The translations under genes and the position numbers were made by a program. The notes under the pieces were generated by a model, which worked only from the letters and a program-made list of their open reading frames with translations, was not told the origin of the DNA and made no database searches. A DNA stretch of 64,000 nucleotides from Prochlorococcus sp. AG-347-I06 (GTDB lineage: Bacteria; Cyanobacteriota; Cyanobacteriia; PCC-6307; Cyanobiaceae), in the NCBI GenBank assembly GCA_003281605.1, contig QCBM01000001.1, forward strand, positions 248,001-312,000, given 5' to 3'. Positions 11,101 through 54,589 of the stretch are shown here, one piece after another (within the stretch, counting starts at the first letter, position 1; each line of letters opens with the position of its first letter).

Positions 11101-12012
11101 ATGAATGTAAGTATTGTTATACCGACTTACAATAGATTACCTATATTAGAGAAATGTCTATTTGCGCTTGAGAATCAAAAATTAAATACAAATATCAGTA
11201 ATTATGAAGTAATAGTAGTTGATGATGGATCAACTGATGGTACAACCACATGGATAAATAAAAACAAAGCTAATCTTCCACACGTTATTCTATTTCAGCA
11301 AGAACATGGAGGGCCTGCACTTGGAAGAAATCTGGGAGTAATTAAATCAAAATACGAAATTATTATATTCATTGATAGTGATCTTATTGTTTTAGACAAT
11401 TTTATAAATTGCCACGTAGAAAAATTACATGCCTCTTGGAGAAAATATGATAAAAAATGTTTTACCTATGGCTCAGTAGTCAATACATCTAATTTTCTAA
11501 ATCCCCAGAGTGAAAAATATAAAATAATGGACACTTCTTTTGCATACTTTGCTACTGGGAATGTAGCTATATCAAAAGAATTGATTTTAAGTGTGGGATT
11601 ATTCGATACTTCTTTTAGTCTTTACGGTTGGGAGGATTTAGAACTTGGAGAAAGATTAAAAAAAATTGGGACAAAATTAATTAAATGCCCAAATGCAGTA
11701 GGTTTTCATTGGCATCCGCCATTTAATTGTGAACAAATAGATTCATTAATAGCTCAAGAAAAAGAGAGAGCAAAAATGGCTTTATTGTTTTATAAGAAAC
11801 ACCCAAATTTAAGGGTTAGATTTATGATTCAATTAACTCCTCTCCATAATTTACTTTGGCAAATTCTTTGCTTGGGAGGACTAATCAGTGTTGATAGAAT
11901 CCTTCCTTTATTAAGATTCCTAGTAAATATAAGAAGAAATAGACTTGCACTTGAGATACTTAGGATTCCTCTTAACATGATTTACTTTAAACAATTAACC
12001 AAATCAAGATAA
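11101..12012 (+). CDS. Family 2 glycosyltransferase
   Basis: The GT-A fold of GT2 enzymes is evident: MNVSIVIPTYNRLPILEKCL at the N-terminus, VVDDGSTDGT (about 40-50), a metal-binding DSD motif in IIFIDSDLIVLDN, and the acceptor-region GWEDLELGERLKKIG (about 177-191). The last 70 residues are hydrophobic and basic and may lie on the membrane. The enzyme probably transfers a sugar to a surface polysaccharide or lipid; donor and acceptor are unknown. The gene stands alone between the exporter operon and rpsB. Confidence 0.88.
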   Translation: MNVSIVIPTYNRLPILEKCLFALENQKLNTNISNYEVIVVDDGSTDGTTTWINKNKANLPHVILFQQEHGGPALGRNLGVIKSKYEIIIFIDSDLIVLDNFINCHVEKLHASWRKYDKKCFTYGSVVNTSNFLNPQSEKYKIMDTSFAYFATGNVAISKELILSVGLFDTSFSLYGWEDLELGERLKKIGTKLIKCPNAVGFHWHPPFNCEQIDSLIAQEKERAKMALLFYKKHPNLRVRFMIQLTPLHNLLWQILCLGGLISVDRILPLLRFLVNIRRNRLALEILRIPLNMIYFKQLTKSR

Positions 12013-12040
12013 AAAACTTTTAGAAATACACATCACTTGT

Positions 12041-12046
12041 TAGAAT
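12041..12046 (+). promoter_or_regulatory. Possible -10 element for rpsB-tsf
   Basis: TAGAAT at 12041-12046 resembles a sigma-70 -10 hexamer and would place a start site near 12053, just ahead of the pseudoknot at 12066. There is no convincing -35 hexamer, which is common in Prochlorococcus. The call rests mainly on position. Confidence 0.35.
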
Positions 12047-12065
12047 ACTTGAAATAAATTTCACA

Positions 12066-12129
12066 CATCTGACAGTTTCGGGTGAATTATTATTATTAAT
12101 TCCCCGTCAGATGGAGGCTAACCCGAAAC
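12066..12129 (+). promoter_or_regulatory. H-type pseudoknot leader of rpsB-tsf
   Basis: Two perfect helices interlock. Stem 1 is CATCTGAC (12066-12073) with GTCAGATG (12106-12113). Stem 2 is GTTTCGGGT (12075-12083), in the loop of stem 1, with ACCCGAAAC (12121-12129). The long loop holds a further hairpin (GAATTA 12084-12089 with TAATTC 12097-12102). GGG 12080-12082 can instead pair with CCC 12103-12105, extending that hairpin and excluding stem 2. A GGAGG at 12113-12117 lies between the stem halves and rpsB starts 12 bp after the element. Autoregulation by ribosomal protein S2, known for rpsB leaders elsewhere, is the simplest role. Confidence 0.8.
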
Positions 12130-12141
12130 CCTTTTTAAATT

Positions 12142-12846
12142 ATGGCTGTTGTATCACTATCAGAAATGATGGAAGCTGGTGCTCATTTTGGGCATCAAAC
12201 TAGACGTTGGAATCCCAAGATGTCTAAGTATATATATTGCGCGAGAAATGGAGTTCATATTATTGACCTTGTAAAAACAGCATTGTGTATGAACAATGCA
12301 TATAAATGGACGAGAAACGCTGCAAAAAGCGGTAAACGTTTCCTATTTGTAGGTACAAAAAAACAAGCATCAGATGTAGTAGCTCAGGAAGCTACACGCT
12401 GCGGAGCTGCATATGTAAATCAAAGATGGCTTGGAGGGATGTTGACTAATTGGACAACAATGAAAGCTAGGATTGAGAGATTAAAGGATTTAGAAAGAAT
12501 GGAAAGTAGTGGTTCAATAGCAATGAGGCCTAAAAAAGAAGCTGCAGTATTAAGGAGAGAACTTGAAAGATTACAAAAATACTTAGGTGGACTTAAGGGT
12601 ATGAGAAGATTACCAGATGTAGTTGTATTGGTTGATCAGAGAAGAGAATCTAATGCAGTATTAGAAGCTAGAAAATTAGATATCTCATTAGTATCAATGT
12701 TGGATACAAATTGCGATCCGGATTTGTGTGAAGTTCCAATTCCTTGTAATGATGATGCCGTTAGATCTGTGCAACTTATTTTGGGAAGACTTGCAGATGC
12801 CATAAATGAAGGTAGAAAAGGCTCTAATGCCGAAAGAAAAAATTAA
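12142..12846 (+). CDS. rpsB: 30S ribosomal protein S2
   Basis: S2 binds late to the 30S subunit near the S1 site. The sequence follows the family from the start: [22 protein letters not shown], then [14 protein letters not shown] and [11 protein letters not shown], and the C-terminal [24 protein letters not shown]. At 234 aa it is full length. It is followed after 44 bp by tsf, the usual rpsB-tsf operon, and preceded by a structured leader (12066-12129) that probably controls both genes. Confidence 0.98.
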
Positions 12847-24170: not shown

Positions 24171-25967
24171 ATGTCATCTTCGATTAAAGAAATTAGAAAT
24201 GTTGCAATTATTGCTCACGTAGATCATGGGAAGACAACACTTGTAGATGCATTGTTATCTCAATCAGGAATATTTAGAGACAATGAAGTTATCCCTACAT
24301 GTGTAATGGATTCAAATGATCTTGAGAGAGAAAGGGGGATAACAATTCTCTCAAAAAATACTGCAGTTAACTATAAAGACGCCAGAATTAATATTATTGA
24401 CACACCTGGACATGCTGATTTTGGGGGAGAAGTTGAAAGGGTTTTGGGAATGGTTGATGGTTGTCTGCTTATTGTTGATGCAAATGAGGGACCTATGCCT
24501 CAAACAAGATTTGTTTTAAAAAAAGCATTAGAAAAAGGACTTAGGCCTATAGTATTTGTAAATAAAATTGATAGACCACGAGTAGTACCAGAAATAGCAA
24601 TTGATAAGGTCCTTGATTTGTTTTTGGAGTTAGGAGCTGATGATGATCAATGTGATTTTCCTTATCTTTTTGGGAGTGGCTTATCTGGTTTCGCAAAAGA
24701 AGAGATGGAATCTAATAGTGAAAATATGATGCCTCTTTTTGAAGCTATTATTAGACATGTTCCTCCTCCAGTAGGTGACTCTAATAAGCCTCTTCAGCTA
24801 CAAATAACTACTTTGGACTATTCTGATTTCTTAGGCAGAATAGTAATTGGAAAGATCCACAATGGGACTATCAAAAATGGCCAACAGGCTAGTTTAATTA
24901 AAGAAAACGGAAAAACTATCAAAGGTAAGGTTAGTAAACTTTTAGGATTTGAAGGATTACAAAGAATTGATATAAATGAAGCATTTGCAGGTGATATTGT
25001 TGCTGTTTCTGGTTTCGATGACGTCAATATTGGTGAGACCATAGCATGTCCAGATTCTCCTCATCCTCTTCCATTAATCAAAGTTGATGAACCTACTTTA
25101 AATATGACTTTTGTTGTAAATGATTCACCGTTTGCCGGTAAGGAAGGGAAATTTGTTACTAGTAGACAATTAAAAAATAGATTGGAGAGGGAACTTTTAA
25201 CAAATGTTGCCTTGAGAGTAGAAGAAACTGATTCTCCTGACAGGTTCTCAGTTTCAGGAAGAGGAGAATTACATCTAGGGATATTAATTGAAACCATGAG
25301 AAGAGAGGGTTTTGAGTTCCAAATCTCACAACCTCAAGTAATTTTCAGAGAAATTGATAATGTTGAATGTGAGCCTATTGAGACTTTAGTTTTAGATGTA
25401 CCTGAAGTATCTGTTGGTTCTTGCATCGAAAAACTTGGATCTAGAAAGGCAGAGATGAAAAACATGCAGACAAGTTCAGATGGTAGAACACAATTAGAAT
25501 TTCTTGTTCCATCAAGAGGATTAATTGGATTCCGCGGGGAATTTGTAAGAATAACTAGAGGTGAAGGCATCATGAGTCATTCGTTTTATGAATATAAACC
25601 AAAAACAGGAGACTTTGAAACCAGAAGGAATGGCGTTCTTATAGCTTTTGAGGAAGGTGTGGCCACATTTTATGCTTTAAAGAATGCTGAAGATAGGGGA
25701 GTCTATTTCATTAAACCTGGAGTTAAAGTTTATAAAGGAATGATAATTGGAGAGAATAATCGACCTCAAGATCTTGAGTTGAATATTTGCAAAACTAAGC
25801 AGTTGACTAATATGAGGTCTGCAGGGGCAGAAGAACTTGATACTTTGCAGTCACCTGTCGATATTACACTTGAAAGAGCACTCGAATATATTGGTCCTGA
25901 TGAAATGCTAGAGGTAACACCGGATTCAATAAGGATGAGAAAAATAAATAAAAAGAAAAAAAATTAG
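24171..25967 (+). CDS. typA: Ribosome-associated GTPase TypA/BipA
   Basis: BipA is an EF-G-like translational GTPase important in stress and ribosome assembly. The G motifs are [10 protein letters not shown] (G1), DTPGH (G3) and VNKIDR (G4), followed by domain II and EF-G-like domains III/V with PQVIFRE and [11 protein letters not shown], then the BipA-specific C-terminal domain. The 598-aa length is normal. It is followed after 11 bp by a DUF309 gene and probably shares its transcript. Confidence 0.96.
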
Positions 25968-53422: not shown

Positions 53423-54589
53423 TTACTTTTTTTCTCTTATTAATACTATAGGGGTTTTTTCATCTCCATTGCCAGCTGGATTAGATAATAAGTTTCTTTT
53501 GAGTATTTTATTTACTTTTTTATTTGAACTTGCTAAGACTTTCACACCTCCAAGATCATTAACATCAACAACTGCAACATCTATATTTAGATAGTTCGAG
53601 ACCTCCTTACAAAATAAATCCGCATTGAGAGGACCCATGACTATACTCTTGTCGTAAGGTGTAACTGTGCCGCTTATATCATCAATGAGAGATGATTCTG
53701 AACCAGTTAATCTATAAAACATACCTTTAATCCCAACTAATTTGAAGAGAAATCCAACAAACAGTGCAAAGGTTATTCTCGTAACTCCGATTCTATTTAT
53801 TAATAATTGCATGCCACAAGCTGTTGCGAGACTGCTTGTAGGATGAAAAAAATAACATAAAGCTTTCGAAAATAAACTATATTGTAAATTTTGAGGGGAA
53901 ATATATCTATTTTGCATAATCGCTAGCGGACTCTCACCGATAGTTAAAATATCATTTCTTTCTACAATTCCTTTGCAGTATTCAATCACAGTATTTACTG
54001 GGTTATCAAAGCAACCAAGTAAATCAGTTTTAATAGCAAAAGCTTTATATTTATTATTTATTGGAATTTCAAAAACTTCTTTCGGCCTTTGTTTTTGACC
54101 ATTTAAATTTATTAAGAAACAATCCTTATTATTTGAAATACCAAAATGTCCATAGTTCTCCCAATATATTTTTAACCATAGATATTTTATTTTTTTTCTA
54201 AAATTATCATTGCTAAATTTATATATGATTCTTATAAATAATTCTGAATTTGACTTGATAATTGTTGTTGGCCAGTAATTATTTAAATTCTTAATTTTAT
54301 TATTTTCATATATATAAATATCTTCTTGATAATTAAAATTTTGGCAATATTCGTTACCCTTACTTTTAAAAAAATCTAATTCAAAATTTATATTAGAAAC
54401 CATCGTTTCTTTGGTTTTACTTTTATTAGTTATTTTTAAATCAATAATTAATTCGTTTAAACCATCCTTTTTTTTGATTTTGTAATTTATAGGTACCAGA
54501 TTTAAATTTGATTTGGGTGAGTTTTTAATATATAAATCTGAAAGAATTAAAAAAATTAAAAGAACTAAGAGGATATTTATTAATATCAT
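53423..54589 (-). CDS. Membrane-anchored CofE-like protein (F420-0:gamma-glutamyl ligase fold)
   Basis: Residues 1-20 are a single N-terminal membrane helix (ILINILLVLLIFLILSDLYI). About 30-170 is a beta-rich domain; from about 175 the CofE-like fold begins (AIKTDLLGCFDNPVNTVIEYCKGIVERNDILTIGESPLAI). It contains DISGTVTPYDKSIVMGP and VDVNDLGGVKVLASS, typical for cyanobacterial relatives. Prochlorococcus is not known to make coenzyme F420, so a different gamma-glutamyl or peptide ligation is likely. It sits between a lumenal thioredoxin-like gene and a GNAT-like gene. Confidence 0.8.
   Translation of the reverse strand: MILINILLVLLIFLILSDLYIKNSPKSNLNLVPINYKIKKKDGLNELIIDLKITNKSKTKETMVSNINFELDFFKSKGNEYCQNFNYQEDIYIYENNKIKNLNNYWPTTIIKSNSELFIRIIYKFSNDNFRKKIKYLWLKIYWENYGHFGISNNKDCFLINLNGQKQRPKEVFEIPINNKYKAFAIKTDLLGCFDNPVNTVIEYCKGIVERNDILTIGESPLAIMQNRYISPQNLQYSLFSKALCYFFHPTSSLATACGMQLLINRIGVTRITFALFVGFLFKLVGIKGMFYRLTGSESSLIDDISGTVTPYDKSIVMGPLNADLFCKEVSNYLNIDVAVVDVNDLGGVKVLASSNKKVNKILKRNLLSNPAGNGDEKTPIVLIREKK

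Follow-up and report, generated by a model that had tools for sequence, protein, structure and literature searches.

What is the structure that lies immediately upstream of rpsB in this Prochlorococcus genome, and what does it do? A sequence-only reading of the window (the whole stretch of 64,000 nt that was analysed, positions 248001–312000 of contig 1; all coordinates refer to it unless stated otherwise) had described two uninterrupted, interlocking helices together with a competing hairpin, had taken them for a translational switch that most simply senses ribosomal protein S2, and had known of no described leader of this exact form. It had also proposed an alignment of related leaders and an Rfam search as checks. 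We followed up these points by re-examining the locus, comparing rpsB leaders across cyanobacteria and searching with covariance models.

Anatomy of the element upstream of rpsB

Re-checking the sequence, we found the two interlocking helices with the same letters and coordinates as in the sequence-only reading (12066–12129), and a third helix, P3, which that reading had not mentioned: inside the knot loop, GAATTA (12084–12089) pairs with TAATTC (12097–12102). According to the list of open reading frames (ORFs), the upstream ORF ends at 12012 and rpsB starts at 12142. The features of the region, in order, are:

12038–12046, + strand: possible extended −10 promoter box, TGTTAGAAT, found with the loose pattern T[A/G]NTANNNT
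12062–12065, + strand: CACA before P1 (CACA/CGCA in relatives, present in 81/83 leaders of the Prochlorococcus set, 62/65 of other picocyanobacteria and 61/70 of other cyanobacteria; ACACACAC in E. coli)
12066–12073, + strand: 5′ strand of P1, CATCTGAC, pairing with GTCAGATG at 12106–12113
12075–12083, + strand: 5′ strand of the pseudoknot helix, GTTTCGGGT, pairing with ACCCGAAAC at 12121–12129
12084–12102, + strand: P3 hairpin in the knot loop (89.1% of cells paired, double changes at 4 of 5 counted pairs)
12103–12105, + strand: CCC junction, potential partner of GGG at 12080–12082 (paired in the nested minimum-energy fold; C run conserved in picocyanobacteria)
12106–12113, + strand: 3′ strand of P1, GTCAGATG, with covariation in the 58-leader alignment
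12113–12117, + strand: GGAGG family motif, overlapping the last base of P1 and probably not a ribosome site
12121–12129, + strand: 3′ strand of the pseudoknot helix, ACCCGAAAC, with covariation in the 58-leader alignment
12142–12846, + strand: rpsB, ribosomal protein S2 (TIGR01011 match above its cut-off, contig positions 260148–260819)
12891–13547, + strand: probable tsf (EF-Ts), the next gene in the same direction (ORF list; named from reading the protein)

P1 and the first knot strand are separated by 1 nt in the window and by 0–5 nt in the leader rows inspected, leaving aside the misparsed leader L158 and E. coli. When the 129-nt gap was shuffled with its dinucleotides preserved, 9 of 20,000 shuffles contained a perfect interlocking pair with both helices ≥8 bp long and the whole spanning ≤70 nt. 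The + strand of the 64-kb window holds two further such sites, starting at 24288 and at 54497, so that the anatomy of the knot alone is unusual but not unique, and it is conservation and covariation that decide. These two sites, at 24288–24354 and 54497–54553, each with perfect 8-bp helices that interlock, are probably due to chance.

The possible promoter has counterparts in related genomes: the same pattern occurred upstream of P1 in 83/83 Prochlorococcus-set, 65/65 other picocyanobacterial and 63/70 other cyanobacterial leaders (counts that come with no background rate), and in 72 of the 83 Prochlorococcus-set leaders the box started 25 nt before P1. A transcription start near 12053 would follow from this possible −10 box, and the presence of the pattern before P1 suggests a dedicated short leader.

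Covariation across cyanobacterial rpsB leaders

Besides the window, we compared 218 cyanobacterial rpsB leaders, 78 from near relatives and 140 from genomes of the class or family. The near relatives came from the best 80 rpsB matches listed (78 Prochlorococcus, 2 Synechococcaceae), of which L051 and L059 were dropped because too little upstream DNA was available (34 and 2 nt). Counts by group refer throughout to the Prochlorococcus set (83), other picocyanobacteria (65) and other cyanobacteria (70). All 218 leaders show the core, either by parsing or by eye. That 220 of 220 were parsed is no test by itself, since the helix finder always returns its best helix pair. The finder misparsed E. coli and L158, although the motif can be seen by eye in both; for L204 and L206 its parse was shifted. 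L158 was left out of the alignment and of the group counts. For L133 and L149, a TTG upstream of the ATG was taken as the start, which affects their spacing and Shine–Dalgarno (SD) counts.

From this sample, 58 leaders including the window were aligned using MAFFT (alignment A1), all with loops of ≤26 nt; the Prochlorococcus set, whose leaders are similar, was included in part. Counts from A1 lean towards the window structure, because the window supplied the structure and the helix finder helped to cut out the rows, even though the MAFFT alignment was sequence-based. The fraction of paired cells was 100% for P1 and 97.3% for the knot helix; double changes occurred at 7/7 and 3/7 counted pairs, respectively. 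The GGGU/ACCC core of the knot is nearly invariant, so that no covariation comes from the core itself. Over all helices, 96.3% of cells were paired compared with 84.6% in shuffles, slid partners paired in at most 58.7% of cells, and none of the five measures was reached by any of 500 shuffles (0/500). Changes in the knot helix were seen in four families of the class (L127/L130/L132; L138/L141; L143; L150), as read by eye from the alignment without a tree. Compensatory changes, which the sequence-only reading had proposed to look for, are thus present in both helices, and the pseudoknot at 12066–12129 is confirmed as real. One odd variant, L137 from class genome G117, has a shifted or mismatched knot helix (CCTGGGGT with ACCCACAGG).

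A cyanobacterial version of the known rpsB leader

The element in the window represents the rpsB (S2) leader, a known family, as it occurs in cyanobacteria. Although well formed, it is ordinary, because this regulatory element had been reported before from bacteria, cyanobacteria among them. The rpsB motif described by Meyer et al. in 2009 consists of P1, P2, P3 and a pseudoknot upstream of rpsB, and it includes Cyanobacteria, in which P2 is absent or very short (PMC2704228). By that account, the family, the knot and the presence in the phylum have all been published, and the impression that no leader of this exact form had been described was mistaken. Our element agrees with the published motif (PMC2704228) in its position upstream of rpsB, a covarying P1, a near-absent P2, a variable P3 and a knot that joins the junction to the 3′ extension after P1. 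It differs from that description in that the knot helix has 9 bp in the window, compared with five predicted outside Firmicutes, that L2 of the window carries CCC and that an SD was not found.

Rfam models recognized this membership poorly. At curated cut-offs, no match was obtained in the window; the best match of the region was t44 (RF00127) with 27.7 bits (E = 5e-4), below the gathering threshold of 44 bits, and the Rfam search proposed at the outset therefore yielded a sub-threshold hit and nothing above cut-off. With the model RF01815 ‘rpsB’ (gathering threshold 40 bits), which probably corresponds to the rpsB motif of Meyer et al. 2009, the window was unmatched at E ≤ 10. At E ≤ 1, this model gave matches in 18 of 40 class genomes, all of them below cut-off; by table comparison, 14 of these matches adjoin rpsB, three do not and one was not comparable. 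As controls, the RF01815 search gave matches in Caulobacter and Methanocaldococcus and none in E. coli or Synechococcus elongatus. With stricter filters and E ≤ 0.001, t44 matched none of 60 class genomes. Among 20 other cyanobacterial leaders, seven had a t44 or RF01815 match at the element with E ≤ 1, again none above cut-off.

A covariance model built from the 58 leaders of A1 (R1) gave the reciprocal link to E. coli. Within 66 kb, R1 scored 20.7 bits (E = 8e-4) at the E. coli t44 region and at most 7.9 bits elsewhere; t44 itself scores 83.5 on the E. coli leader. Both leaders have CACA, P1, GGAGGC and a knot strand of the form AACCCxAA, with rpsB and tsf downstream, and the E. coli knot (UUGGGGU/ACCCCAA) carries a compensated change from C-G to G-C at the pair C12079–G12125. 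In the E. coli leader, by contrast, P1 has a different sequence, additional nucleotides separate it from the knot strand, and a GAGG of its own follows the knot by ∼10 nt. Covariation demonstrates the structure, and its position upstream of rpsB and its kinship with the E. coli leader were likewise shown here.

Distribution across the phylum

Globally, R1 matched 131 of 291 genomes of the phylum, with one match per matching genome, and 130 of the 131 matches fell in the own genome or in the same genus, family or class. For Cyanobacteriia, this corresponds to 130 of 139 sampled genomes, a split that is partly inferred since nine non-matches are listed in the class and 140 further ones were taken as belonging to other classes. 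In eight of the nine missed genomes, rpsB is present and the element can be recognised by eye, mostly with long loops (leaders L110, L158, L235, L236, L237, L239, L240 and L245); in the ninth, no rpsB match was found. In the 54 genomes that were cross-checked, the R1 match was invariably located 13–25 nt upstream of the rpsB match on the same strand. G458, a genome of the same genus, has no rpsB match though its assembly is listed as 99% complete, most likely owing to an assembly gap.

Outside Cyanobacteriia, R1 supported no members: its lone match there (G490, 25.4 bits) is weak and was treated as chance because it lies on another contig than the rpsB of that genome. By eye, the sister-class leader L233, upstream of rpsB, resembles the element in having a P1-like stem and a GGAGG-like motif, but any knot in it would be short. 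The sister-class leaders L238 and L242–L244 look different and share a CCCGTAG- or CCTGAGG-like sequence well upstream of the SD.

GGAGG and Shine–Dalgarno sequences

GGAGG was correctly located at 12113–12117, inside the element and 24 nt before the ATG at 12142. This distance is too far for an SD. The motif GG[A/T]GG is present in 83/83, 63/65 and 48/70 leaders of the three groups, and E. coli also has GGAGG, plus a separate GAGG nearer the ATG. Since E. coli and SD-bearing cyanobacteria keep GGAGG in this position in addition to a separate SD nearer the ATG, we rejected it as a ribosome site or part of one.

Outside picocyanobacteria, an SD-like sequence was present near the start in 68 of 70 cyanobacterial leaders, and in 67 of 70 a GGAG starts −1 to +5 nt from the 3′ end of the knot. 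Near the picocyanobacterial start, no SD was found in any of 148 leaders (0/83 in the Prochlorococcus set and 0/65 in the others).

Probable regulation by S2 and alternative explanations

That the rpsB leader senses S2, as the sequence-only reading had supposed, is the standard and best interpretation, and is what has been reported for the E. coli homologue (PMC10931766). In E. coli, uS2, helped by bS1, represses translation of rpsB-tsf through the leader; this 2024 review calls the details of the mechanism unclear because the SD and start codon lie outside the operator (PMC10931766), a point that counts against steric exclusion as a settled mechanism. For the element described here, an S2 leader with a knot that is stabilised by S2 and blocks the 30S subunit is very probably the right explanation and the best one we have. 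The leader would fold into P1, the P3 hairpin and a knot between GUUUCGGGU, before P3, and ACCCGAAAC, after P1. Once S2 outnumbers 16S rRNA, it would bind and stabilise this knotted form, probably with the help of S1, and since the knot adjoins the ribosome landing site, the 30S subunit would be kept from starting on rpsB; tsf output would fall together with that of rpsB. By analogy with E. coli, S2 and S1 would be the ligand in cyanobacteria, and repression the outcome. The distance from knot to ATG is 9–14 nt in the Prochlorococcus set and 7–15 nt in other picocyanobacteria, a spacing that falls inside the space covered by the 30S subunit. Judged from spacing only, the knot may therefore exclude the 30S subunit sterically. 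Among the records listed by a literature search with most subscription journals outside its reach, judged by title and the start of the abstract, none showed a cyanobacterial experiment on the rpsB leader.

We regard it as unlikely that the fold is a constitutive structure, which would only protect the 5′ end of the mRNA, or act as a standby site for the ribosome or a landing site for S1, with no S2 feedback. Such a role would fit the report that pseudoknots and AU-rich sites are high-affinity targets of S1 (PMC10931766), as well as the retention of GG[A/T]GG in 83/83 and 63/65 picocyanobacterial leaders, where no SD was found, but the homologous E. coli leader is reported to be an S2-responsive operator (PMC10931766, PMC2704228).

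Similarly improbable is a two-state switch, in which a ligand would choose between pairing of GGG (12080–12082) with CCC (12103–12105), giving an extended P3 and the on state, and pairing with the 3′ ACCC, giving the knot and the off state. The letters and coordinates of both runs were correct, and in the nested fold of lowest energy for the window (−20.4 kcal/mol), computed with a program unable to form knots, GGG:CCC is indeed present and the knot absent. Nested energies were −12.0 kcal/mol for P1 and P3, −19.5 kcal/mol upon addition of GGG:CCC, and −12.2 kcal/mol for the knot helix alone. Positions −4 and −3 before P1 are C in 100 and 113, respectively, of 119 unique picocyanobacterial cores; the junction before P1 is mixed in 69 cores from other cyanobacteria. 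We compared real with shuffled loops, omitting loops >90 nt and duplicates. For the window loop, 3% of 500 shuffles reached its GGG-sequestering value. Sequestering of GGG was higher than with shuffled loops in the Prochlorococcus set (0.988 versus 0.968; above the median shuffle in 50/54) and in other picocyanobacteria (0.962 versus 0.904; 39/59), yet both advantages are small, and in other cyanobacteria GGG was less sequestered than with shuffled loops (0.649 versus 0.774; above the median shuffle in 14/67). Across the 58 leaders, GGG:CCC pairing occurred in 66.1% of cells and was thus no commoner than in slid controls (46.9–81.6%, the 8-cell slide aside); covariation is silent on this pairing because GGG is constant. 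The competing hairpin as a family-wide switch is therefore unsupported by both the loop shuffles and the pairing count, and the hairpin is at most a lineage-specific feature. It is improbable that the S2 leader was rebuilt in picocyanobacteria, with the SD lost, the C run beside P3 fixed and repression exerted as a choice between extended P3 and knot at an SD-less start.

Transcription attenuation, by which the knot or hairpin followed by CCTTTTT would end transcription before rpsB, is highly improbable and was rejected: TTTT follows the knot in 73/83 Prochlorococcus-set leaders but in only 1/65 other picocyanobacterial and 2/70 other cyanobacterial leaders, and since the knot is kept in these, the U run probably reflects the base composition of the lineage and is not part of the element. 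The window has a short T run after the knot at 12132–12136.

Implications for the S2 leader family

With the family and its knot already published, the residual new points are the adjacency of knot and SD, the missing SD in picocyanobacteria and the failure of Rfam to report the element at its cut-offs. At these cut-offs, neither t44 nor the rpsB model recovers the cyanobacterial members tested. In most cyanobacteria other than picocyanobacteria, the knot lies directly against the SD, which offers a simple, testable idea for the mechanism that is unclear in E. coli. Finally, nearly all of the oxygenic cyanobacteria in this sample have the published S2 leader.
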